Shown: in pieces, positions 49,272 through 61,459 of the stretch | Numbering within the stretch: position 1 is the first letter of the stretch | How the letters are laid out: every line of letters begins with the position of its first letter | Source: Isoetes taiwanensis | Lineage: Eukaryota; Streptophyta; Lycopodiopsida; Isoetales; Isoetaceae | Assembly: GCA_021234155.1 (NCBI GenBank) | Contig: JAJEKV010000072.1 | Span: 184,001-248,000, forward strand | DNA length: 64,000 bases | Direction: 5' to 3' | Translations under genes and position numbers: made by a program | The notes under the pieces: generated by a model | Told to the model about the DNA's origin: nothing | The model's database searches: none | The model's input: only the letters and a program-made list of their open reading frames with translations

Positions 49272-50380
49272 TATATGGAAGTGCCTTCTGAAGAGTTGCA
49301 TCTCTCACCAAAGAGAACTGAATATAATTTGGTTGTTCTTACTGATGCTTGCAATTCTTGTGGTCCAAAGAGGAAGAGAGGCATGCCAAGAAAGGACAAT
49401 GGGATTGTAATTCGAGGGCAGAATGACAGGGATGAGCAAAAGAAGAAGAGGCAGTTCGAGGGGGATGAGAAGAAGAAATTTAAATAGGCAGAGAGAGAGA
49501 GAGAGAAAAAGCAGAGAGAAAGGAAGGAAGAGCGAGAGAGATTGAAGAAAGAGAGAGAAGAGAAGAAATGTCTGGAGAAAAAAGAGGAGGAGATGAGGAA
49601 GAGCATGCAGAGGGAGACGAAAACTAAACGTGCTAAATGTGAGTGTGAAGGTGACTGTCAGTGGCTTTGATATAGTGGAAGATCATTACGTAAGATCGTG
49701 CAGGTTCTTGGACTCAGATTGCTTGGCAGGCATGGTGGCAGTAGAACGGGGTTCAGAACTTGATGACCTGCACCTGCAGTATGTATTTCGAATTTCTGCA
49801 ACCACGCTAGCACCAAGGACGTCCGCTGCATCATTTATGGGTTGTCTGCTGGGGAATAGCCAATAGAGAAAGTGGGCAAAAGGCGGCGCAGGTTTTGGGA
49901 CGATGCTCTGGCATGCGAGGAGCTAGATAAGCGTGATGTAATGCTGGAAGAGGATGAAAAGAACATCGCTAATGACGATGATGCAGTTGACATCGTGGAT
50001 TACCCTGTCGATGAGGAGTATCATGAGGAGACACCTGCTTTTATTCCTCCCATAGATGGCAGCCAGCCTTGCTTCCAAGATTATATTGCTTTAGATATGC
50101 AAGCCGTGGCTTTCATATTGGATAGTATGAATTCTTAAATTGTTGGTTGTTGTTGACGTTTCATCTTGCTAATTGGCTGAATGTTCTGTTGCAAGCCGCA
50201 TGTCGATGGCGCGCCGGCCCAAGGATAGAGGGATGCCACTCATCCACCTCCATTCTCTACCTTTATTTCCTTGGATGTTGAACCTGCAGAGCGCCGCACA
50301 ATTGAAGAGGTGGCTCCTCTATTTGCAGCTCCATTTTTTTATGTTGAGTGGATGAAATCACAGACTTGGCGAATTGCGCA
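49272..50380 (+). pseudogene. Unidentified reading frame split by the tRNA-LTR retrotransposon, 5' part
   Basis: Seen in order: VVLTDACNSCGPKRKRGMPR, a long charged Glu/Lys/Arg helix (49,480-49,630), a stretch with GFDIVEDHYVRSCRFLDSD, the acidic KRRRRFWDDALACEELDKRD segment ending with a stop at 50,136, and EPAERRTIEEVAPLFAAPFF up to QTWRIA at the insertion point. Stops separate the parts. The last frame continues without a break at 60,857 after removal of the retrotransposon and one target copy. The family is unknown; it could be a host pseudogene or another transposon's ORF. Confidence 0.5.
50376..50380 (+). repeat. Target-site duplication, left copy (GCGCA)
   Basis: GCGCA directly precedes the 5' LTR, and GTGCA follows the 3' LTR at 60,852-60,856. 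Four of five bases agree. The duplication fits a 5 bp integrase stagger. Confidence 0.6.
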
Positions 50381-50557
50381 TGTTGGAATGTTGGAGTATG
50401 TGTAATGGGCACACATGAAGAATGACTCAGTGGAGGAGTGCCGAAAGCCCATCAAAGGGCCGGTAGCTCAGTGGTAGAGTACTTAGCTTGCAAGCAAGAG
50501 GTCCTGGGTTCGATCCCCAGCCTGTCCACCCAATCATAGGAGGCTCATTTCTCAACA
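50381..50557 (+). mobile_element. 5' LTR (177 bp) of the tRNA-LTR retrotransposon
   Basis: It starts TGTTGGAATG and ends TTTCTCAACA, with TG...CA ends. It matches the 3' LTR at 60,675-60,851 in length exactly and differs at three positions (50,426, 50,518, 50,524), about 1.7 percent. It contains a tRNA-like sequence at 50,457-50,528 in the sense orientation. There is no TATA box, so transcription could rest on the internal RNA polymerase III promoter. Confidence 0.9.
50457..50528 (+). tRNA. tRNA-Ala(TGC)-like sequence within the 5' LTR
   Basis: 72 bases fold as a tRNA cloverleaf: acceptor GGGCCGG/CCTGTCC with a G3-U70 wobble and one C-U mismatch, D arm GCTC/GAGT, anticodon loop CTTGCAA with anticodon TGC, and T arm CTGGG TTCGATC CCCAG with five pairs. 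The anticodon stem is weak (three of five pairs). The A box TAGCTCAGTGG and B box GGTTCGATCCC match the consensus. G3-U70 is the identity element for alanine. The stem defects suggest a tRNA-derived promoter and not a translating tRNA. Confidence 0.7.
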
Positions 50558-50558
50558 T

Positions 50559-50570
50559 TGGTATCAGAGC
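50559..50570 (+). promoter_or_regulatory. Primer-binding site for initiator Met tRNA
   Basis: TGGTATCAGAGC, complementary to the 3' end of plant initiator-Met tRNA, begins one base after the LTR. It is the usual minus-strand primer site of plant copia elements. The primer is thus a different tRNA from the one encoded in the LTR. Confidence 0.85.
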
Positions 50571-50593
50571 TAACTAGTTCCTGCCCTGTGATA

Positions 50594-51775
50594 ATGACAA
50601 CCAGATTCGGGGCAAATCTATTAAACTCTATTGAAGTCTTTAAAGGAGATGGAGGATTTCAAATCTGGAAGGTGGGTATTAGAGGTGTGCTGGAGTTTGA
50701 AAAGTTGTGGTATTTGTTTGATGGTAGTCCAGTAAGCGGTGCAACTAGCTCAGGTAATTCAACTGCTGCTAGTAGTGGTAATGCTCAATCTGGTGCAGGG
50801 GGAACTTCAGGTGAAGGTGTGTCTACTGCAAGGGCAACTTCTCTGAGTTCTGGAGCAGAAGATGAAGCTAAGATTATGGAGGCCCAGGCCATAATCATGT
50901 GTAAGGTAGGCACTGCTTTAAAACTGAAGCTTCGAGGCATGAAGCCTAAGGAAATGTGGGATTATTTGATAAAGCACTATGAACAAAAAAGTTCTTCACA
51001 AATAGATGTGCTAGAAAAACAGTTAAGGAAGATGAAATTGTTTGAGAAGGATAACCTGACTGACTTTTTGGAGAGATTTGATTCCATTATTGCAGATCTT
51101 GAGGGAGCTGGAAATATCTTGAATGAACAGTATCAAATACTTGCTTTGGCAAGAGCAATATCTCATAATAGTCACTTGGCAACTTTACTCAGAAATGTAG
51201 CCACTTCCAAGGAGCATGCTATCAGAATGATACGCACAGAGTTTGAACAGTCTACTATTACACAGGAGGAAGCTGATCAATCCTCAGAGGTCTTGTATAC
51301 AGGTAAGACTAAAAGAGGTGGTTTTGTAAGAAGGAAAGTAGGACCTTGTTATGCATGCAATCAATTTGGTCACCTAAAGAGTGAATGTCCAAACAATAGT
51401 GAGAAGGAATTTAGATGTTTCAATTGTGAAGGCAAAGGGCATTTTGCTTTTGATTGCCCAAGTCCTAAAAAGGGAAGAGGTCGAGGGGGATTCTCTGAAA
51501 CTTATAGAGGTGGCAGAGGCAGGGGAAAATTCAAAGGAGGCTCAAGTATTAATGTGGTAGAAAAGCAAGATAGTAGTGAAGGTGAACTTGAGAATGATAC
51601 CTTGGAGGTAAGGAAGAATTTAGCTTGTAATGTTTCAGAGTTTCCAAGGAAAAGCAATAAACAATTTGTTGTTATAGATTCAGGAGCAGAAAAAAGTGTG
51701 ATGTGTGACTTGCATATGCTTAAGGATTGGGAAAAGAAGGAAGGACATGTGCAACTTGGTGATGGGGGGGTTTGA
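50594..51775 (+). pseudogene. Copia gag and protease
   Basis: The frame from the ATG at 50,594 (MTTRFGANLLNSIEVFKGDG) holds the gag capsid region of the UBN2/DUF4219 type, a Ser/Gly-rich insert at about residues 45-85, two CCHC zinc knuckles (CYACNQFGHLKSEC at 252 and CFNCEGKGHFAFDC at 275), an Arg/Gly-rich linker and the aspartic protease site IDSGA at 362. It binds and packages element RNA and cleaves the polyprotein. The frame fails in a run of seven G at about 51,765; the continuation (LRDVLCVP) is in another frame, then shifts again at about 51,865 (VRNLISVCRLVDLGYKI). I chose 50,594 because the codons before it fall in the primer-binding site. Confidence 0.85.
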
Positions 51776-52059
51776 AGAAAATAGAAGATCTGGGAGTTTT
51801 AGAGTTGTTTGACTTAAATGGCAAAAAAGTAAAATTGAGAGATGTTTTGTGTGTGCCCAGATCTTGTTAGAAATCTCATATCCGTATGCCGCCTTGTGGA
51901 TTTGGGATATAAAATCTTGTTTGAACAGATCCGTTGTAAAGTATTTCTTAATGGTGAATTAAAATTTATTGGCAAAAGAGTTGGTAATCTCTTTGATTGG
52001 ATATGGAGCATCTTCATGAAATTAACCTTGTGGAATATTCAGGATGTGAAAATATGGCA

Positions 52060-53224
52060 TAACAGATTATGTCATGTAAATCTTTGCAACAATTAAAAGA
52101 CTTGGAGAAAAGGGATTAATATCCGCCAAGGTACAAAATGAAAAGTTCTTATGTGGGGGTCGTCAACTTGGAAAAGCAATCAAGATTGCCATTTAAAAGG
52201 TCACACAAAAGAGCAAAGGGCATTTTGGATTTGGTGCACATGATTTATGTGGTCCTATAAATGTTACTAGTTTGAGTGGGCATAGATATTTCATGAGCTT
52301 TATTGATGATTTCATTGAGAAAAACCAAGTGTTATATTTTGAAAACAAAAGACCAAGCTTGTGATGCTTTGAAGTTATTTCTTCGCTGAAACCGAAGCTA
52401 GAAACCGGAAGGAAGATAAAGTGCATAAGGTCGGAGACAGAGGAGGTGAATATATCTCTCGATGAATTTAAAGCTTTTTTGTGCAAACAGGGGGATCGGG
52501 GAGGCAATTGACATGCGTGAGATACTCACCACAACAAAATGGAGTTGAAAAAGGAAAAATAGAACATTGCTTGATCTTTGTGAGGTCCATGTTGAAGTAC
52601 TCTGGCTTACCAAATTATTTATGGGATGAAGCTGTGAAGACGGCTGTCTACATTCAAAACTTATTACCTTCATCAAGTATTAAAGGTGCAATTCCAGAAA
52701 TGCTTTGGTCTGGTAAGTCACCTTCTTATGATAGATTAAAAGCATATGGGTGTTTATGCTTTGTACATGTGCCTGAAGAACTAAGGAAAAAGTTGGATGA
52801 TAGAGCATACATATCTTATCTAGTAGGGTATGATTCTAACTTGAAAGCATTCAGATTATATGATCCCGCTAGAAAGAAAATTATAGTGAGTAGAGATGTG
52901 GTCTTCAATGAAAATGAATTTTATAAGAAAATTCCCAAGATAAATACTGAAGATCCATGTGAAAGTGAAAGGAAAGATAGTATTGAAGAAGCAAATCAGT
53001 CAATAAGTGAAGAGGAGAAAACTCAAGGATTGAAGCAGGTAGATTTCAGTGACTCTGATAATGAGTCAGAAATGATTCCAAGTAATGTTGTTGAGCCAGA
53101 AGTGGAATCAAGTGCTGAGCAAGAGATTGAACACCAAGAGGCAGAGGGTGATAAAACTGATAGACCAAAAAAAAAAACCTGCATCGAACGAAGCTCAAAT
53201 GTTGGCAGAAGAAGCAAAACATAA
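52060..53224 (+). pseudogene. Copia integrase (degenerate)
   Basis: The zinc-binding start is seen as IWHNRLCHVN at 52,056-52,090. The core is broken by several frameshifts and stops (52,100-52,480). From 52,481 an open frame contains YSPQQNGVEKGKIE (normally the TPQQNGVAERKNR-type block with the catalytic Glu), YLWDEAVKTAVYIQN, RLKAYGCLCFVHVPEE, YLVGYDSNLKAFRLYDP and an acidic linker up to about 53,224. It then continues in the next frame to the RT start. The integrase is not functional. Confidence 0.8.
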
Positions 53225-53430
53225 TTTAGAGTCTCATGGTAGAACTGAACTTGGGAAAAGTAAAAGACTTAGATCTCAGGTAGGAGAAATTAATACTGTA
53301 TTTGACATTTTGATACTTGAAACAGACAAGATTCCACAAAATTATATGGAGGCAGTTCAAGATATGAATGGAAAGAACTGGAAATGTGCTATGGAAGAAG
53401 AAATGAGAGCATTCAAAAGGAAGGAAGGAA

Positions 53431-53612
53431 AAATTTTTAACGTCCACGGAACCCAATCGGGTTATGGGACCAAGTACATAAGGGACCGAAGTCCTGGACC
53501 GAAGTCCAAACAAGAACATGGGCCGAAGCCCTTAAACCAAAGCACAACGTGAGCTAGAACACAACCATCATAACCCGGATTAAAAACCACCTGGGAAAAA
53601 ACCGTTGCCAGG
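53431..53612 (-). mobile_element. ATTCT-family retroelement copy in the copia RT
   Basis: On the minus strand: CCTGGCAACGG, TTTTTTCCC, TTTTTAATCCGGG, TTGGTCCCATAACCCGATTG and CCGTGGACGTTAAAAA. It interrupts the copia between RAFKRKEG and DYTVVDIPSDKN, where a continuous RT N-terminus is expected. The tail repeats are not preserved and no clear target duplication was found. It includes a GGGCTTCGGCCC hairpin absent from other copies. Confidence 0.65.
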
Positions 53613-53614
53613 AT

Positions 53615-54111
53615 GACTATACAGTAGTAGATATTCCTTCTGATAAGAATATAGTTGGAAGTAAGTGGATCTATAGAATAAAACCAGGAGTAGAAAAAAA
53701 TACTAAGAAATTCAAAGCCAGACTTGTTGCACAGGGCTTTACACAGAAAAAAGGGGAAGATTTTGATGAAACATTCTCACCATTGGTAAAGATAAATAGT
53801 TTGAGAATGTTATTAGCTATTGCTAATGCTTGTGACCTTGAAATCCATCATATGGATGTAAGTACAGCATTCTTAAATGCTAAATTAGAGGAGGAAATTT
53901 ATTTAAGACCTGCACCTGGGTTTGAAGAGGACAAAGGAAAAATTTGGAAGTTGAATAGAGCAGTCTATGGTCTTAAACAGTCTCCTAGGGAATGGTATAA
54001 ATGTATGGATGGATATCTTGTAGAACAAGGTTTTGAGAAGCTCAATTATGATGGTAATATCTATAGGTTCAAAATGGGAGATGCCTGGTGCATTATTGCT
54101 TTATATGTTGA
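53615..54111 (+). pseudogene. Copia reverse transcriptase, 5' part to the YVD codon
   Basis: The frame is open from DYTVVDIPSDKNIVGSKW through FTQKKGEDFDETFSPLVK, HHMDVSTAFLNAKLEEEIYL (first catalytic Asp in D-V-S-T-A-F-L), LNRAVYGLKQSPREWY and ALYVD. It ends within the second Asp codon region because a Helitron is inserted after base A of GAT at 54,111. The match to the Ty1/copia RT order is complete up to this point. Confidence 0.9.
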
Positions 54112-54349
54112 CTAGAAAAAGTGCCCAGCGTTGCTGGGCTTTTTGTCGGGCATAAGCTCAAAATTTAATAAAATATGAATAGTTTTTACAAAGTCTATGT
54201 TCTGATGATGTCGGGTAGGAGAGATATGTCATTCACAACATTGAGCTTTAGTTGGGAAGATGTAATTGAACATGGACTACTTAGTGCTGGTGTTTGAAAA
54301 GGATGTTGCAGGTTTTTTGATAGTAATACGCTTGCTGCTCTCTTTGTTT

Positions 54350-54413
54350 GGATCACATAGGCCAATTGGTCTCCGTGGACGATAAAAATACATTTTATTC
54401 TATTCTATTCTTA
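54350..54413 (+). mobile_element. ATTCT-tailed retroelement tail inside the Helitron
   Basis: It reads CACATAGGCCAATTGGTCTC, CGTGGACGATAAAAATAC and then ATTCT-type repeats. Only the last 60 bases of the family are present. Confidence 0.65.
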
Positions 54414-54486
54414 ATAGACTTAGCAATGCATGAGGAAACTTGTAACTTAATGCATTTTTAGTTATATTCGTCATTTCTAGTACTAT

Positions 54487-54517
<31 letters not shown>

Positions 54518-56028
54518 TATTTTAACGTCACACCACTAGGCAGCATCCAACTGGACAACGTAACATATAAATTTGGTACAATATTAATATTCCACAATTC
54601 TTACAATCCTCATAGCTAAGGATTATTGTTATATGGCTAGGGAACTTGCATGAAAAATGAACTAATGTATGAAGTAGTCGTCATATATCCACATGAACAT
54701 AGTCATCTACAACTCCACTAATGGAAAAAGGTTTGCCATTATCATCATCTAGCTATAGATATTTTCTAAATTATTCATGCATATATTGGTCCACACTATA
54801 CTCCTCTTTGTCAAGAAATCTAGGCAACACCTTGGGAGGACCTAAAACTTCATTGTCTTCTCTAATTTCTTGCCTCTCATGTGTCAAGCATCTCCCACTA
54901 TAAGCTAGTCGACATTTGATTGATATAAATTCGTTATTGTATGAACAATGGTTTCAAAGAGCTCATGCCATTTTGTCACTCATGGTAAGGAAAAAAACAC
55001 TCATAGGAGAGAAAAACAAGCATATCGTGCAATTTCACACTCGGTTTGCTTTACAACCTCCAAAAATACTAAGCCAATTATTGAAATTACTGAACATAAT
55101 TAGTAATGTCCAGAATGGGATGATTTCTTACTGTGCTTGAGGTTTATGCTCAAAATCCTTGGATAGGCTCTAAACATGATATGACTATATCTGTATATTA
55201 AGATATCAAAGGCATATATAATATCTTTCGATTAAGCTGTCAACTTCGCATGAGCGAACGCTATATATACAGTTGCATCGAGACCAATCCAATTGGTTTT
55301 GTTACTTTTATTGTGTTTAAGTAAGGAATTTGAAGCATAAACATTCCATGAAAATACATTGGGCCATTCAAGAGTTGGTTTTTATCATATACACATTGGA
55401 AAAAAATAATACAATGATTCTTCATACTTTTAACCTTTCTGCCTTTTCTCCAAAGTAATCCATCTAGATTTGGCATTTTTGGTCTTCCAATAATAAAAAC
55501 AAAAGATATCAAATGATTTTTCCTCTGCTTAAGCAATGAGAATTTGCTTGAACTGTTCTAGCTTAGATGTTATACTTTACACCCTTTCTACATAAGCTTC
55601 AAGATAACAAATTGGAACCCACTTTCACGCAAAACATGGTGAGATTCTACATTGTTTATAATAAAAAGGTTATAGAGACATCTCCATAGCTTACACTTGA
55701 TAGATTTGGCATCCATGTTTCTTGTATAAATGGCCAACTCTTGAAATGTCAGTCCAAACTTCACAAACTCGCTGCCAACCTGTAAAAGTTATTATTAACC
55801 TAAAATTTTGGACTCATCCCCTGAATCAATCTCGGTTAAAAGGGCTTGAAGTAATGATATTTAATTCTATGAAACTCTGCTACAATACTTAAAGACTTCC
55901 AAAAATGTAAATGGGGCTAATCATATGCAAGCAAGAAATCGCTTCTATGCATGTTTCAATAATGAAAAGCTTTTGCACAATACTTCACCTACCATATGGC
56001 ACCAAAGTGAAAAAAAAGAACATATAAA

Positions 56029-56110
56029 CTATGGGTATATTTCCAAGTGTGTTAGTGAAAAATGGAAGAACATATAAACTACTGATATATTTCCAAGTGT
56101 GTTCGAATCC
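56029..56110. repeat. Two-copy tandem repeat in the Helitron
   Basis: GAACATATAAACTA followed by a TATATTTCCAAGTGTGTT block occurs twice with small changes. Confidence 0.6.
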
Positions 56111-58279
56111 ATAGTCACAATAGATGCCATCAGAAATGCACTTATTTTACTGCATTTTGTTGTAGGACTAAGTTTCGCTGCTCGTTCTGTTGGCAGTCCT
56201 AGTGCATTTTCAGCTTCAATGCCATATAAAATATCATTGTGCATATTGCAAGCACAAATGTTGCTAGGTTATGTGTAGTCATAATAAGAAACACTGTCAC
56301 TGGCATAGACAATGGAAGTGTTTGGCAGGTGGAAATTTGCATTGTAAGAAGCAAATGAGGAAGAGTCAAGGGGATTCAACCTAAAACTTTATCTCAAAAA
56401 TAGGTCTCAGCAAACCATGAGACCATTTATGACATAGTAAGGATCGGGATTTTAAAATGGTAAAGGAATTTTGAACTTCCAAAACTGTAATGGAATTATG
56501 AACTTACAGCACAACACTTTGTGGCACCAGTGAACGTTGTAAGACAAGGGATGAGCAAAAATAATGCCAAGTGCATCACTCTCCTTTGTAGTCTTGCACC
56601 TACATTCTGCAAGTCCTCCATCCTCATATTAAATCCTAATATTCAAATCCATATTTGCCACCTTAAAAAATGGTCCACTGCATCAAAAGAACTGCCATTT
56701 AAGAAACGAGCATTTACATTTGTACACAGAAACTTGGACTGAGAAACTAAAAGAGCCACAAAACGCACAGGAAAACCATCTCCATTCCAAAAAAAAACAG
56801 CCTATTAAACATTTTTTATGGAACGACACATAATCAACGGTCTTGGCCTTTTGACCGCAATAGAAGAATATATATTCCGAAGGATTTCTCTCCTTTAAAT
56901 GATTGAACATATGCACATGGCACAAAACCAGCCAATCAGGAAATCAGGTCTGCTGATATAGTATCTAGAAGATAGCCAAAGGTGGAATCAGCTTTCTACA
57001 CAATATAATCAGTATTTTAACATGTGCACAGCTTACATTGATGACATAAAGAATTGCGGAATGTATGCTTTAAATAGTAGTACTTTCTTCTTTATTAAGT
57101 ATCTTCATTTGACCTGTTACCTTCATTTAAGTAGTTTAGCAGACTATACGTTTAGATATTATTACTTCTCTTCTATTTAACTTCGTTACTTACCTCTATT
57201 TGAGCTGCATCTGTGCTTACAATAAAACCATCTGCATCCGAAACTTCCTTGTCCTCCTTTTCGAGATACCCTCAAACCAAATCATATGCTTCAGTCCATC
57301 TAATCCAACAATGCCCAAATGCTTTCCTGCTTCTGTCATGCCAAATGTTTAAGGGGCTATACACAATGATTCCATTCCAACACATAGCAATGGAGATTTC
57401 ATTTCAGCACATAAGCAACCGTGTCTAGAGGCAAAGTCTTTGGGATTTTAATGCAAAATTGTAAAGAAGCAAAACCATGCATTTGACCATGAGATCATAT
57501 GAAGAAGAGAGCACGCTTTTTTCTTGAAGCCAAAGTGAAAAACGAATTTAGTTTTGTGGCTGCCCTAGAAACGATGGATCTGTGAACAATCCACAAATAA
57601 CTCTGCCATAGATGTTCCTCAACAAATGAATCGTTGCCAAATACCTGCTTGCCAACATCGATTCTTATCTTCATCTGTCTGCTGAAGAAGAGAGTTCCAT
57701 GTTATGATTAAAGAAAGGATCATACCACGAGATCGTTTCCTACCGATGGAGTGCTAAGCATATACTTCAATAAATCCAACTGGTGCAAAACATGTTTTCA
57801 AGGGAACACATGCCCTGCTCCTGATTTGGAGCCTTGTCTACTATCTCTGCAAACAATCCGTTTCAAGCTTCAAACTCTGGCAATGGAAAATAAAATGATG
57901 GACATAAAAGAAGGAGATTTGCTGAAGTACTGTTTTATGTTGTCTGACACAATCTACAAGCTGCTTGTAACCATATTCCAGAGCTGCACCTTATAAACAA
58001 ATGCAAAGATAACAAGTCAAAAGCTTCAAAGTGCAATATTGCTAATCATTTGCATGCAATTGATCTAAGATTGCTTGTACCGGACATATCGGGCTAGAAA
58101 TTCAAGCTTTTGGCGGGATCATTACATGTCAATAATCATTAACTAAAGCATTGTTCTGAGTAGCGTAAAACATTACAGAGCTAGATACACTAGGGCACCC
58201 CTTTCGCACAAACATTCCATCCTAATTTTCCCATGCCTGTATGATGTTCTGACCTTGATGGCAGTGGCTTTTTCTGCAA

Positions 58280-58534
58280 CTAAAACCCGCACCATATCCT
58301 TGCTCCATACAGCCTGCTTCTTGAATTCTTAAGCGCGCAACCGAGAACCATCTTTGCAGCGTAATCTAGTGATCCAAACGTTTGATAGAATTCATTCCCC
58401 ATTGTCACTCTAATGACATCTCTTTGCAATGTCTTTTCCTCGGGAGTTCTGCTTCCAGATCCCATTTCCACGTCTCTGCTATAGACATGGTAAAGATCAA
58501 CCGACACAAATAACTCCATGTTCAGAAGACCCAA
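58280..58534 (-). CDS. Hypothetical ORF carried in the Helitron
   Basis: The 84-codon frame (MELFVSVDLYHVYSRDVEMG ... FGSLDYAAKMVLGCALKN) has balanced codon use and no low-complexity stretch, so it may be a captured host exon, as Helitrons often carry. No homology is recognised and it stops without a splice donor in frame. A second protein-like stretch lies at 58,686-58,976 on the same strand. Confidence 0.3.
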   Translation of the reverse strand: MGLLNMELFVSVDLYHVYSRDVEMGSGSRTPEEKTLQRDVIRVTMGNEFYQTFGSLDYAAKMVLGCALKNSRSRLYGARIWCGF

Positions 58535-59041
58535 ATTCAGAAAACTCTAGACTGAAATTCTTAGGCTTTTAAGAACACTCCAGAACAGATCAACTGGCTA
58601 TGGCTATGCAGGTTTGCAGAATGCGTCAGGTTCAAAGATTGTTCCGGTCCCCTAAAACCAGTGCAAAATAAGCAGATATTTTAACCTAGAATAGAAATAG
58701 AGATTTTAGCCTAGAATAGAGACAAAGAAGGATTAGCAGCAGAGAAATTGAAACGGCTCTGAAGTGCCAACCGAAATGCAATTGCACTGCATAGTGAAGG
58801 CCGAACATTCTTACCACAACTATTTTTAGTCGACAAAATCCAGGTTTGAGGATGCATACTTGGTTCATCTGCAATCCGGCCGGAATAGAAATAGTGCAAG
58901 GCGACAACGATTCCTCAATAACCGCAATCAAAACAATTTTAAAGGATTTCAGCCGTAGATTTAATCTAATGGGCAAGATTGCGCACAGACTATCATAAAA
59001 CGCCTTTATTATTATATATATATAGAATATAGATAGATAGA

Positions 59042-60030
59042 TGACAATATTATGATATCAAAGGGAACTCAAGTACTAAATCATTGCAAAGATATCTTAA
59101 AGAAACGATTCCAAATGAGTGATCTTGGAGAATTAAAGAGGTTTCTGGGCATAGATGTTTACAGGGACAGAAATCACAAGATATTAGCTTTGAGTCAACA
59201 AGGGCATATTCAAAACATGTTGAAGAAATTTCATATGGAAGATTGCAATATGGCATATACTCCTATAGTTCCGGGTCCTGCACTTTACAGATATGAGCCC
59301 AAAGACGTAAAGCGTAAAAGCAAACAAATGGAGAAAATACCTTACGTAAATTTGATTGGTTGTTTGTCCTATGTAGCCAATTGTACTAGGCGACATTGCA
59401 TTTTGCGTTAATATTCTCAAGAGGGTACAATGACAAGGCTGGTAAAGGACACGGAATGCAAAAAAAAGGATTCTCAAATACTTGAAAGGTACAATGCATT
59501 TTGGTATAGTATTTAATGGAACCAACTTGCAAATTGTGGGCTTATTGTGATCTTGATTGGGGAGGAGATTTAGATAAACGAAAATCAACTTCAGGGTATG
59601 TTATTTTATTAGGTGGAGCCCCAGTTGCTTGGAAGTGCAAGAAGCAAAGCAGCATTGCTTTATCTAGTCTTGAAGGTTTGAGTACAACTCAAAGAGCCCC
59701 TCGCTGACTAAGGAACTTATTTGGGAAAGAAGGCTTATGGCAGAATTTGGGTTTGCTCAAAGAGGACCAACAATCATTTATTGTGATAATACTAGTTGTA
59801 TTGCTATGACAAAAAACCCAATTCTGCATGAAAGATCAAAACATATTGATATGGAGGTTCATTTTATCAGGGATATGGTAAAGAAGGATCAGGTGCATTT
59901 AACTTATGTTAGTTCACAAGATCAACGAGCAGATATACTTACAAAAGCCTTACCATTGTCCAGATTTGTGGAATTAAGAAGTTTGCTACACTGTGACAAC
60001 AGGGAATATCACATGAAGGGGGAATGTTAA
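59042..60030 (+). pseudogene. Copia RT 3' part and RNase H
   Basis: It continues directly from the YVD codon: DNIMISKGTQVLNHCKDILK, MSDLGELKRFLGIDVYRD (the copia L-G-x-L-x-x-F-L-G-I block), then YVNLIGCLSYVANCTR. After a frame break at 59,410 RNase H follows: AYCDLDWGGDLDKRKSTSGY, WKCKKQSSIALSSLE, and from 59,737 YCDNTSCIAMTKNPILHERS, KHIDMEVHFIRDMV and ADILTKALP. The stop lies at 60,028-60,030, overlapping the polypurine tract, as is usual in copia. Confidence 0.85.
60015..60023 (+). promoter_or_regulatory. First polypurine tract (PPT1)
   Basis: AAGGGGGAA directly before TGTTAAAATT. It overlaps the end of the copia RNase H frame. In a normal element the 3' LTR starts here. Confidence 0.7.
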
Positions 60031-60480
60031 AATTATGTGTCATGTGATATTCGAGCATATAAGGGGATTAGTGACCACATCTTGGCTCCCCTAGGCTAAT
60101 GAGGATTCATACAAGCATTCATGAGAAGCAAAGGGCGGTGAATGCAAGAAAAAACATAGAAGTCGAAAAGTGGTGGGCGTGTACTACCCGCACGTTGCCC
60201 CACGGCCGCTTTAAAACGCGCGGATACCCCTTGCCCGCCACTTAGAGTTTTGATCTGGTCAAGCGGGTCAAAGTCAACGACTTTGGATACCGGAACTTAA
60301 GGAAATAGGGGCATCCTATTATTTTAGTAAGTTGGAAAACTTTCTATAGGAAGGGGCATGCACGATTTGACATGTGGATATATCCAGGTTGATAAGAAAA
60401 TATATATATATGAATGAATGTGATATAGAACATAAGGAGCTGAGTGCAGATAAAGGTGTGTGTATGCAGTTTTAGGAGCG
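60024..60480 (+). mobile_element. Second LTR-like block (LTR B), unrelated to the tRNA LTR
   Basis: It begins TGTTAAAATT after PPT1 and is followed by a primer-binding site at 60,482, so it has the position of an LTR on both sides. It carries a TATATATATA element at 60,400-60,411, about 70 bp before that site, and a GC-rich stretch near 60,180-60,240. The 3' border is unclear: a CA end at 60,468 or the base before the primer site. No second copy lies at the element's 5' end, which instead has the tRNA LTR. Confidence 0.6.
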
Positions 60481-60481
60481 G

Positions 60482-60493
60482 TGGTATCAGAGC
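60482..60493 (+). promoter_or_regulatory. Second primer-binding site (PBS2)
   Basis: TGGTATCAGAGC, identical to the site at 50,559, followed by different sequence (CATGGTCCCAAGTAAAGGG). The 172 bp to PPT2 are non-coding, like the internal region of a TRIM element. Confidence 0.8.
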
Positions 60494-60665
60494 CATGGTC
60501 CCAAGTAAAGGGTGCTTAACTGCACCGAGATAGTCCTCAGTGGTGTAGGGGTGAGAATGAGCAAAGCTTGGCCAGTGGAAAGCCCAACTCCCGCAGTGGT
60601 GGAGTTGCCCGAGGAGGGGAGCTTGTGGATTGTGGTGAAGGCTGGAATGGATTGGTGTGCCCATT

Positions 60666-60674
60666 AAGGGGGAA
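60666..60674 (+). promoter_or_regulatory. Second polypurine tract (PPT2)
   Basis: AAGGGGGAA directly before the 3' tRNA LTR, the same nine bases as PPT1. Confidence 0.75.
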
Positions 60675-60851
60675 TGTTGGAATGTTGGAGTATGTGTAAT
60701 GGGCACACATGAAGAATGAATCAGTGGAGGAGTGCCGAAAGCCCATCAAAGGGCCGGTAGCTCAGTGGTAGAGTACTTAGCTTGCAAGCAAGAGGTCCTG
60801 GGTTCGATCCCTAGCCTATCCACCCAATCATAGGAGGCTCATTTCTCAACA
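60675..60851 (+). mobile_element. 3' LTR (177 bp) of the tRNA-LTR retrotransposon
   Basis: It pairs with 50,381-50,557: equal length, three substitutions, same TG...CA ends. GTGCA follows as the right target copy. Confidence 0.9.
60751..60822 (+). tRNA. tRNA-Ala(TGC)-like sequence within the 3' LTR
   Basis: Same as the 5' copy except for two changes: one gives a G-U pair in the T stem (CCTAG for CCCAG), one adds an acceptor mismatch (CCTATCC for CCTGTCC). The A box is unchanged, and the B-box core GGTTCGATCC is intact. The 5' copy is thus the better folded one. Confidence 0.6.
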
Positions 60852-60960
60852 GTGCACGCTTCATTTATTGCTTTAACCAATGCAGTAGACATCTTAGAGG
60901 AAGCTTTGACTGTAGTGGACGATCCAGGCATTGACGTTTCACTGCGGGATAGAGGTATTT
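60852..60960 (+). pseudogene. Unidentified reading frame split by the retrotransposon, 3' part
   Basis: Beyond the target copy the frame joins the upstream part as RIA|HASFIALTNAVDILEEAL and goes on TVVDDPGIDVSLRDRGI to a stop at 60,960. The uninterrupted frame over the junction confirms the insertion point. Confidence 0.5.
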
Positions 60961-61259
60961 AGAGGAGAGGTGAATCATGTGCGAGCTATGCTTTATCTAA
61001 GCTCCGCCAGCTTCATCGGCTTGCAGCCACTCATCCCAACACTATGCGGGCATGATCTGGCATTGTCCTCTGTGGGCGTGGAGCTCCTTCTTGTATATGG
61101 AGTTTTGTTGTTTCTATTTTATACAGAGCAAGCAAGCTTCCAACTTGTTGCAATCTGGATGGTTTATGTTTCTCTATTATATTACTTTGGGTGACTTTTA
61201 AAACAAGCAACGTTGACGTTGCTTTTGTACATGACAATTTCACTTCTCTCAATACGTTG

Positions 61260-61459
61260 TGATATGGTGTATTTGTTTTAATGTAATCTTCGGATCACTT
61301 GTTTTAGTTTTGATTTTTGTGTTGCAATTGTCGCTCCTCTCTTGTTGTTCTGTATATGTTATGATATGGTGTATTGGTTTTAATGTAATCTTCGGATCAC
61401 TTGTTTTGGTTTGATTTTGTGTTGCAATTGTCACTCCTCTCTTGTTGTTCTGTTTATGC
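61260..61459. repeat. Two-copy tandem repeat of about 100 bp
   Basis: TGATATGGTGTATT(T/G)G, then TAATGTAATCTTCGGATCAC, CTCCTCTCTTGTTGTTCTGT are repeated with a few substitutions and three small deletions in the second copy. Confidence 0.75.

Follow-up and report, generated by a model that had tools for sequence, protein, structure and literature searches.

Does the element in this window, the whole 64,000-nucleotide stretch of Isoetes taiwanensis DNA that was analysed, represent a coding retrotransposon whose own LTRs carry a tRNA-Ala-like RNA polymerase III (Pol III) promoter, or do the tRNA-bearing LTRs belong to a different element? The first-pass annotation favored the former. Based on the interior of the locus and on related loci elsewhere in the genome, the window holds a hybrid between a short, tRNA-bearing TRIM and a Copia element, ordered LTRt-PBS-Copia-LTRcopia-PBS-TRIM interior-LTRt, where LTRt is the TRIM LTR and PBS the primer-binding site (Table 1).

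Structure of the element in the window

The outer repeats form a direct repeat of two copies, 181 nt in register with 98% identity, at a spacing of 10,294 bp. The LTR cores (TG...CA) are 177 bp long and differ at three sites (positions 46, 138 and 144), in agreement with the earlier description. ARAGORN identified a tRNA-Ala(tgc) in both outer LTRs and no other tRNA across the window; an Rfam search of the whole window at curated cut-offs likewise returned two tRNA matches only, at 55.1 and 47.3 bits against a tRNA cut-off of 29 bits, and nothing that would qualify as a 5S rRNA of the Cassandra type. In the 5' LTR, the sequences TAGCTCAGTGG and GGTTCGATCCC, which correspond to the consensus A box and B box, are intact. 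The tRNA-like sequence with both boxes that had been proposed for each outer LTR was thus recovered. Its description as cloverleaf-like holds in part: the Rfam covariance model accepts the 72-nt sequence, whereas its unconstrained minimum-energy fold is not a cloverleaf.

The interior did not bear out a coding retrotransposon with tRNA LTRs. The Copia has an LTR of its own inside the element, and this LTR is tRNA-free (an Rfam search of the Copia A LTR at L040 gave no tRNA match at E<=1); the tRNA LTRs are those of the short TRIM. A single coding element with tRNA LTRs was rejected on account of this inner LTR. The PBS, TGGTATCAGAGC, is of the initiator-Met tRNA type. The pattern across the 5' TRIM/Copia junction matched exactly at the window only, the position C1089:17071981 having 3 mismatches. 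All three Copia A junction patterns together gave exact matches only at the window and at C1038, and imperfect matches at C1089 (3 mismatches), C907:45608274 (2) and L002 (3).

The inner Copia LTR, the second PBS, the TRIM interior and the ~4.9-kb insertion had been overlooked in the first-pass annotation. The RNase H region is placed by position and has no Pfam match. As an individual case, the window is limited by one mismatch in its target duplication and by a Copia LTR that lacks ~56 nt.

Table 1. Features of the window element (positions in the window) and hybrids at other loci (contig given as position)
Feature	Position	Strand	Evidence or remark
5' target-site duplication GCGCA	50376..50380	.	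sequence read
5' TRIM LTR (LTRt), TGTTGG...CTCAACA	50381..50557	+	direct repeat; numerous genome copies (40 of 505 rough candidates scored)
CAA immediately upstream of 5' LTRt tRNA part	50453-50455	+	conservation across 107 LTRs
tRNA-Ala(TGC)-like sequence, 5' LTRt	50457..50528	+	ARAGORN; Rfam RF00005, 55.1 bits; conservation across 107 LTRs
A box of 5' LTRt tRNA part	50464-50474	+	intact, TAGCTCAGTGG
B box of 5' LTRt tRNA part	50507-50517	+	intact, GGTTCGATCCC
Primer-binding site TGGTATCAGAGC, TRIM/Copia junction	50559..50570	+	sequence read
Copia A gag (Retrotran_gag_2, zinc knuckles)	50594..51775	+	Pfam; gag-end query matches (40 of 1372 rough candidates scored)
Copia A protease/integrase/reverse transcriptase first part, broken frames	51776..54115	+	ORFs; Pfam SH3_retrovirus, RVT_2
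~4.9-kb insertion splitting Copia A reverse transcriptase (YVD/D); right edge approximate	54116..59045	.	RVT_2 half on each side
Copia A reverse transcriptase remainder, RNase H region, polypurine tract	59046..60024	+	ORFs, Pfam
Copia A polypurine tract	60016-60024	+	
Copia A 3' LTR, tRNA-free, final ~56 nt absent	60025..60481	+	matches LTRs around other Copia A copies; L040
TRIM interior, 193 nt	60482..60674	+	genome matches (40 of 261 rough candidates scored)
Second PBS, start of TRIM interior	60482-60493	+	
TRIM polypurine tract	60666-60674	+	
3' TRIM LTR (LTRt)	60675..60851	+	direct repeat; genome copies
tRNA-Ala(TGC)-like sequence, 3' LTRt	60751..60822	+	ARAGORN; Rfam 47.3 bits
3' target-site duplication GTGCA	60852..60856	.	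matches 5' partner GCGCA at 4/5 letters
Hybrid B	C963		GAATT/GAATT; LTRt pair 0/177 different; inner LTR_B
Hybrid C	C907		CGTTC/CGTTC; 135 nt of TRIM interior remaining; damaged
Hybrid D	C979		GCTAG/GCTAG; damaged
Hybrid E	C1050		CACGG with 2 extra nt; LTRt pair 15/177 different; damaged
Hybrid F	C1070		ACATC/ACATC; damaged
Reciprocal hybrid, LTR_A-PBS-TRIM-LTRt-PBS-Copia A-LTR_A	C1038		GCAAG/GCAAG

The TRIM family and its tRNA part

The tRNA LTRs belong to a non-autonomous, multi-copy TRIM of ~547 bp. Its standard unit is 177+193+177 bp (547 bp in L003), with a PBS and a polypurine tract at the ends of the interior. Two full LTRs and the interior were found in 26 of the 79 fetched loci, and 21 of these 26 are flanked by exact 5-bp target duplications; among the others, two have one mismatch, two are cut inside tandem arrays and one is not assessable. 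L029 and L085 are one insertion seen twice, so exact duplications flank 20 of 25 distinct TRIMs. Many further LTR copies were present in the genome, as the first-pass annotation had suggested looking for, and the tRNA part is retained at most of the fetched loci: ARAGORN called a tRNA in 72 of the 79 (all rows kept), and 99 of its 103 calls were tRNA-Ala(tgc). We also fetched 20 tRNA places from the genome, which ARAGORN assigned to 13 Ile(tat), two Arg, two Lys and three TRIM LTR copies, with no genuine Ala gene among them; the TRIM LTRs would inflate any count of tRNA-Ala(TGC) genes in this genome.

The tRNA part could be a passenger, left by an old tRNA or SINE insertion in a TRIM that is transcribed by Pol II. 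We consider this unlikely, and what speaks against it is retention and low divergence. At loci picked by similarity of the interior, the tRNA was called in 35 of 39. LTRs that lack the tRNA part and show a clean empty site, named beforehand as contrary evidence, were sought using the LTR minus the tRNA part as query, and none was found among the 40 scored of 442 rough candidates. The tRNA-less exceptions examined are damaged or chimeric LTRs (a deletion in L012, a chimera in L032) and do not represent empty sites. In 61 LTRs of the interior-chosen loci, 1.4% of cells are changed in the tRNA part vs 3.9% in the rest of the LTR, and CAA at -4 to -2 is almost invariant across 107 LTRs (0-2.8% change). 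For these conservation counts, we dropped L078 (second copy of L074) and L106 (duplicate of L105), with flanks 88-98% and 90-94% alike, respectively; the duplicates L029/L085 and L072/L081 were kept. The signal of selection acting on that part is weak in a shared-versus-private test: for LTRs chosen by their interior, p=0.027, or 0.21 under a looser cut, and for all LTRs, p=0.052 and 0.33. The weakness of this signal would suit a passenger, as would promoter matches that are in silico and a TRIM with no internal terminator.

As to that terminator, TTTT is absent from 22 of 22 full TRIMs, and thus there is no Pol III terminator inside them. TTTT was also absent in 37% of shuffles of one TRIM copy, so its absence is no evidence of design, and we rejected it as such. 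We infer that transcription of the TRIM by Pol III is plausible from its sequence; its RNA would start from the tRNA A and B boxes. L032 has integrated despite LTRs without a B box, and its template may have had one.

Hybrids at other loci and their origin

Besides the window (hybrid A), there are five loci at which LTRt encloses a different Copia family (hybrids B to F); the target duplication is exact at four of them and a near match at the fifth. For hybrid C, a related repeat in L076 represents the site without the element, with the target present once. The gag regions of A, B, C, D and F are 39-74% alike (best translated segment 27-198 aa), and the pol regions of B, D, E and F match each other only partially, at 56-70% over 23-110 aa. 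Copia copies with their own LTRs at both ends exist for A and B.

We considered a nested insertion of Copia into the TRIM, which would require a pair of Copia LTRs as well as an inner duplication, and rejected it. Only one Copia LTR is seen in the window, in B (a single LTR_B at the locus) and in E (from reading the junction).

The hybrids probably arose from a Helenus-type TRIM with a tRNA-derived LTR promoter, by template switching with Copia in shared particles. TRIM RNA would be packaged in particles of Copia elements having its PBS, initiator-Met tRNA would prime its reverse transcription, and the product would integrate and generate 5-bp target duplications. Within shared particles, the cDNA would jump between TRIM and Copia RNA, mainly and most cleanly at the common PBS; the arrangement found in the window would arise in this way and integrate as a single unit, and the window's 4.9-kb insertion would have come later.

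Recombination after insertion could yield a similar outcome. If plain TRIMs were inserted first and one-LTR Copia DNA circles then recombined with them at the 12-nt PBS identity, the same order of parts as in the window, B and E would result, with the same outer duplications, and C1038 would follow equally with the roles exchanged. We nevertheless regard this route as improbable, since it requires several separate events in 12 nt of homology with different Copia families. In D and F, moreover, the Copia meets the TRIM within its LTR or its interior instead of at the PBS. L032 also argues against it, as an identical chimera of LTRt and the end of another Copia LTR (X) forms both of its LTRs (target TATTC/TGTTC); this is the product expected if a strand was transferred between two RNAs prior to integration, whereas later recombination would alter one LTR. 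The PBS is, in addition, where strand transfer normally takes place during reverse transcription. The structures, the target duplications and the recurrence with different Copia families are observed; co-packaging of the RNAs and recombination before integration are what we infer. An autonomous or once-autonomous Copia natively using Pol III LTRs, as first proposed, is very improbable: although the outer repeats do flank gag-pol, the Copia LTR is internal, flanks other copies and has no tRNA match, and exact Copia A junctions are confined to two loci.

LTR swapping between a non-autonomous element and its autonomous helper was reportedly described in soybean by Du et al. in 2010; to our knowledge, the swapped LTRs there contain no tRNA.

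Four one-sided joins (L012, L013, L018 and L090) had no other end within 6 kb and are therefore without a target duplication. At three further loci (L002, L009 and L035), the PBS is immediately preceded by foreign sequence; these stand outside the hybrid count. Likeness between the TRIM LTR and the Copia LTRs was rejected as evidence on shuffle scores: shuffles scored as high in 76/300 (A), 263/300 (B) and 238/300 (E) trials, and in 10/300 for LTR X, which has a 19-nt match.

Comparison with known elements

TRIMs with a tRNA in the LTR may have been described before, as the first-pass annotation had cautioned, and this is so: Helenus is a published type (Kojima 2024, PMC10886601). Judged by the features given in its description, the TRIM is of the Helenus type, being a short, non-coding, non-autonomous LTR element with a tRNA-like sequence, conserved A and B boxes included, in each LTR, a PBS, a polypurine tract and, like the fungal and plant Helenus described there, 5-bp target duplications. 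Copia is the likely helper both of fungal Helenus in that account and of the TRIM here. For Helenus, Pol III transcription is likewise expected, not demonstrated, and its description deems long LTR sharing between such TRIMs and coding partners unlikely (PMC10886601); contrary to that expectation, TRIM LTRs here enclose coding Copia at several loci, via recombination. Cassandra, as characterized in PMC7215508, resembles the TRIM in its Pol III-type promoter in the LTR, the PBS TGGTATCAGAGC and short tandem arrays, for which template switching was already proposed as one origin; however, its LTR has a 5S rRNA with promoter and terminator, whereas the TRIM has a tRNA and no TTTT. In the accounts cited, the helper of Cassandra is given as unknown (PMC7215508, PMC10886601) and that of Helenus as inferred only (PMC10886601).

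The complex LTR retrotransposons of grasses, which Sabot & Schulman (2007, PMC1950507) attributed to template switching among RNAs packaged together, share with the hybrids alike outer LTRs, an inner LTR, two cores and one target duplication. Hybrid B has all of these; the window has them less cleanly, with LTRt different at 3/177 and a duplication alike at 4/5. The TRIM "core" of the hybrids is non-coding. As the grass elements are presented in that paper, their cores come from one family or closely related ones, with template switching proposed to occur between R regions, whereas here different elements are joined at the PBS, and one partner is a tRNA-bearing TRIM. New Onsen insertions can likewise be recombinants of two RNAs packaged together, with the difference that the partners described are of one family and include no TRIM (PMC5668417).

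The TRIM is a new member of a kind already known, and its repeated fusion with Copia is the notable part. The hybrids show a route by which gag-pol can acquire LTRs that contain a tRNA promoter. If their junctions are the traces left by shared particles, genome sequences could reveal which element mobilizes such a TRIM. We are evenly divided on a broader reading, in which many Copia families would have a Pol III-type TRIM as a permanent partner for recombination: strand transfer at the shared PBS would repeatedly enclose whole or partial Copia genomes in tRNA LTRs, handing a Pol III promoter to coding elements, and the junctions would record the mobilizing families.

The only plant Helenus family listed in the published description is from Selaginella, with an LTR of 120 bp and an interior of 85 bp, compared with 177 and 193 bp here (PMC10886601). 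With the Isoetes TRIM, Helenus would now be represented in a second lycophyte.

A short element with tRNA-bearing LTRs

The first-pass annotation described two 177-bp LTRs (LTRt) with three differences and a tRNA-Ala-like sequence in each; these are 98% identical and lie 10,294 bp apart, both contain an A box and a B box, and ARAGORN called tRNA-Ala(tgc) in both (Rfam tRNA: 55.1 and 47.3 bits). The attribution of these LTRs to the coding element between them had to be abandoned, because that element, Copia A (gag and RVT_2, frames broken), has a separate tRNA-free LTR (LTR_A), which matches LTRs paired at other loci with about 4.4-4.9 kb between partners; Rfam found no tRNA in the Copia A LTR, as checked on L040. 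The owner of the 177-bp LTRs is a TRIM with a standard unit of ~547 bp, a primer-binding site (PBS; TGGTATCAGAGC) and a polypurine tract (PPT; AAGGGGGAA). It is of the Helenus kind, the published TRIM type with tRNA-derived sequence in the LTR. PMC10886601 lists Selaginella as the only plant host of Helenus and calls long LTR sharing between such TRIMs and a coding partner unlikely. Among the open-licence papers listed by full-text searches, no other title or abstract opening described elements with tRNA-bearing LTRs.

The genome, which also contains an rbcL-like gene belonging to the green-plant type, was searched for further copies with the LTR as query: of 505 rough candidates 40 were scored, giving 41 matching places. 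Full-length matches reached 97-100%, and the places frequently formed pairs with ~370 bp between partners. We then analyzed 79 fetched loci (L numbers; C numbers are contigs): 39 were picked solely by similarity to the 193-nt TRIM interior, several of them being joins between TRIM and Copia sequence, and 40 came from LTR, tRNA, Rfam and U3 searches. Two full LTRs with an interior occurred in 26 loci: the 5-bp target duplication was exact in 21 and had one mismatch in 2, another 2 elements are cut inside tandem arrays, and 1 was not assessable; as L029 and L085 are the same insertion seen twice, exact duplications number 20 in 25 distinct full TRIMs. Twelve apparent solo LTRs comprised five with exact duplications, five hybrid ends and two truncated copies. 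In one TRIM (L076 and L077, C919), ~6.8 kb of inserted DNA appears to separate the two halves; interior positions 73-77 occur at each edge of the insert, as a 5-bp target duplication would.

Recurring TRIM/Copia hybrids

Joins were present in 11 of the 79 fetched rows, representing 10 loci (L078 is a second copy of L074), and in the window; three loci with antisense Copia nearby (L007, L009, L089) were left out of this count. Besides a reciprocal hybrid, there are five more loci (B to F) in which LTRt encloses another Copia, and four joins are one-sided (L012, L013, L018, L090).

Features of the window and of hybrid loci
Feature	Location	Flanks	Structure
Window hybrid (A)	50381-60851	duplication GCGCA / GTGCA	LTRt-PBS-A-LTR_A-PBS-TRIM interior-LTRt
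5' LTRt	50381-50557
Insertion, ~4.9 kb	54116-59045		lies within the reverse transcriptase of Copia A, separating YVD from D
LTR_A	60025-60481		3' of Copia A PPT; last ~56 nt missing
3' LTRt	60675-60851		preceded by second PBS and TRIM interior
Direct repeat	61247-61422		two 74-nt copies, 102 bp apart; closely 3' of window element
Reciprocal hybrid	C1038	GCAAG both sides	LTR_A-PBS-TRIM-LTRt-PBS-A-LTR_A; Copia A internally deleted; final LTR_A without its start
Hybrid B	C963	GAATT / GAATT	inner LTR_B 269 nt; outer LTRts identical over 177
Hybrid C	C907	CGTTC / CGTTC	remaining: 135 nt of interior, last 13 nt of 3' LTR
Hybrid D	C979	GCTAG / GCTAG
Hybrid E	C1050	CACGG with 2 extra nt	inner LTR; outer LTRs differ at 15/177
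Hybrid F	C1070	ACATC / ACATC	5' LTR internally deleted
Chimeric LTRs (L032)	C1038:6020187-6020858	TATTC / TGTTC	both LTRs: ~130 nt of LTRt, then end of Copia LTR X; B box lost

LTR_B is likewise paired at other loci (e.g., 4.4 and 4.7 kb between partners), and the target of hybrid C without the element is visible in a related repeat within L076. Among A, B, C, D and F, gag similarity is 39-74% over the best translated segments, all of them short at 27-198 aa, and pol of B, D, E and F gave partial matches only, with DNA identity of ≤66% over 245-437 nt where found; we take the Copias inside the hybrids to be different families. L012 and L018 carry the same Copia LTR X upstream (97% over 240 nt), which meets the TRIM interior at the PBS, so these two joins may descend from a single one. 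Over its first 19 nt, LTR X is similar to the beginning of the TRIM LTR. The 4.9-kb insertion in the window begins near AAAAAGTGCCCAGCG, and its right side finishes in TAGA repeats.

Template switching as a possible origin

One round of reverse transcription makes both LTRs of an element, and L032 has the same chimera at each end, which points to strand transfer between Copia X RNA and TRIM RNA before integration. The rival account of the hybrids is recombination with circles after insertion. For template switching between TRIM and Copia, we infer the following course. Second-strand transfer depends on base-pairing at the PBS, and the TRIM and the hybrid-partner Copias have a common PBS. If both RNAs were in one particle, minus-strand cDNA that passed the TRIM PBS could continue on the Copia RNA and traverse the Copia LTR and interior up to the Copia PBS; ordinary transfer would then add the TRIM LTR, giving the order in the window, B and E. 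A switch within the TRIM interior or LTR would yield the structures of D and F. Complex LTR elements attributed to template switching are already known in grasses (PMC1950507).

Tandem TRIM arrays, which the same switching might also generate, or repeated interior segments were seen in L006, L009/L017, L021, L029/L085, L086, L091, L096 and L103. They resemble the tandem arrays of Cassandra, a TRIM with 5S rRNA sequence in its LTR, for which this origin has been proposed (PMC7215508).

The tRNA part and a putative Pol III promoter

Of the 103 tRNA calls that ARAGORN made, spread over 72 of the 79 loci, 99 were Ala(tgc); it found a tRNA in 35 of the 39 interior-chosen loci. Differing cells made up 1.4% of the tRNA part versus 3.9% of other LTR positions in the interior-chosen set (61 LTRs), and 1.75% versus 3.6% across all 107 LTRs. 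In the tRNA part, the ratio of variants common to ≥3 elements to private variants was lower, although this test is weak (61-LTR set: p 0.027, rising to 0.21 under a looser cut-off; all LTRs: p 0.052 or 0.33). A CAA directly upstream of the tRNA part is nearly invariant, and the adjacent next base is variable in 38%. CAA at ≤10 nt upstream is described as a start-site motif of plant tRNA genes, present in about 36-45% of those of flowering plants (PMC11700998). The first-pass annotation named tRNA-free LTR copies with a clean empty site as evidence against its reading; with the LTR minus the tRNA part as query, none was found among 40 scored of 442 candidates. A Pol III promoter in the TRIM LTR is therefore plausible and appears to have been kept. 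TTTT was found inside 0 of 22 full TRIMs, an absence that chance alone would allow.

The own LTRs of Copia A (L040, about 573-628) and E (L110, where the LTR end adjoins TRIM interior) end in a B-box-like GTTCAAAyCCC, a stretch in which Rfam found no tRNA; Copia A also has, ahead of the PBS, an inverted repeat of part of that stretch (AGCTCTGAT). The searches also returned many high-scoring tRNA genes (C1101, C1018:5019630-5047715, C323, C334, C1021), several of them clustered. Among 20 fetched tRNA places, ARAGORN identified 13 as tRNA-Ile(tat), which looks a large number for that tRNA.
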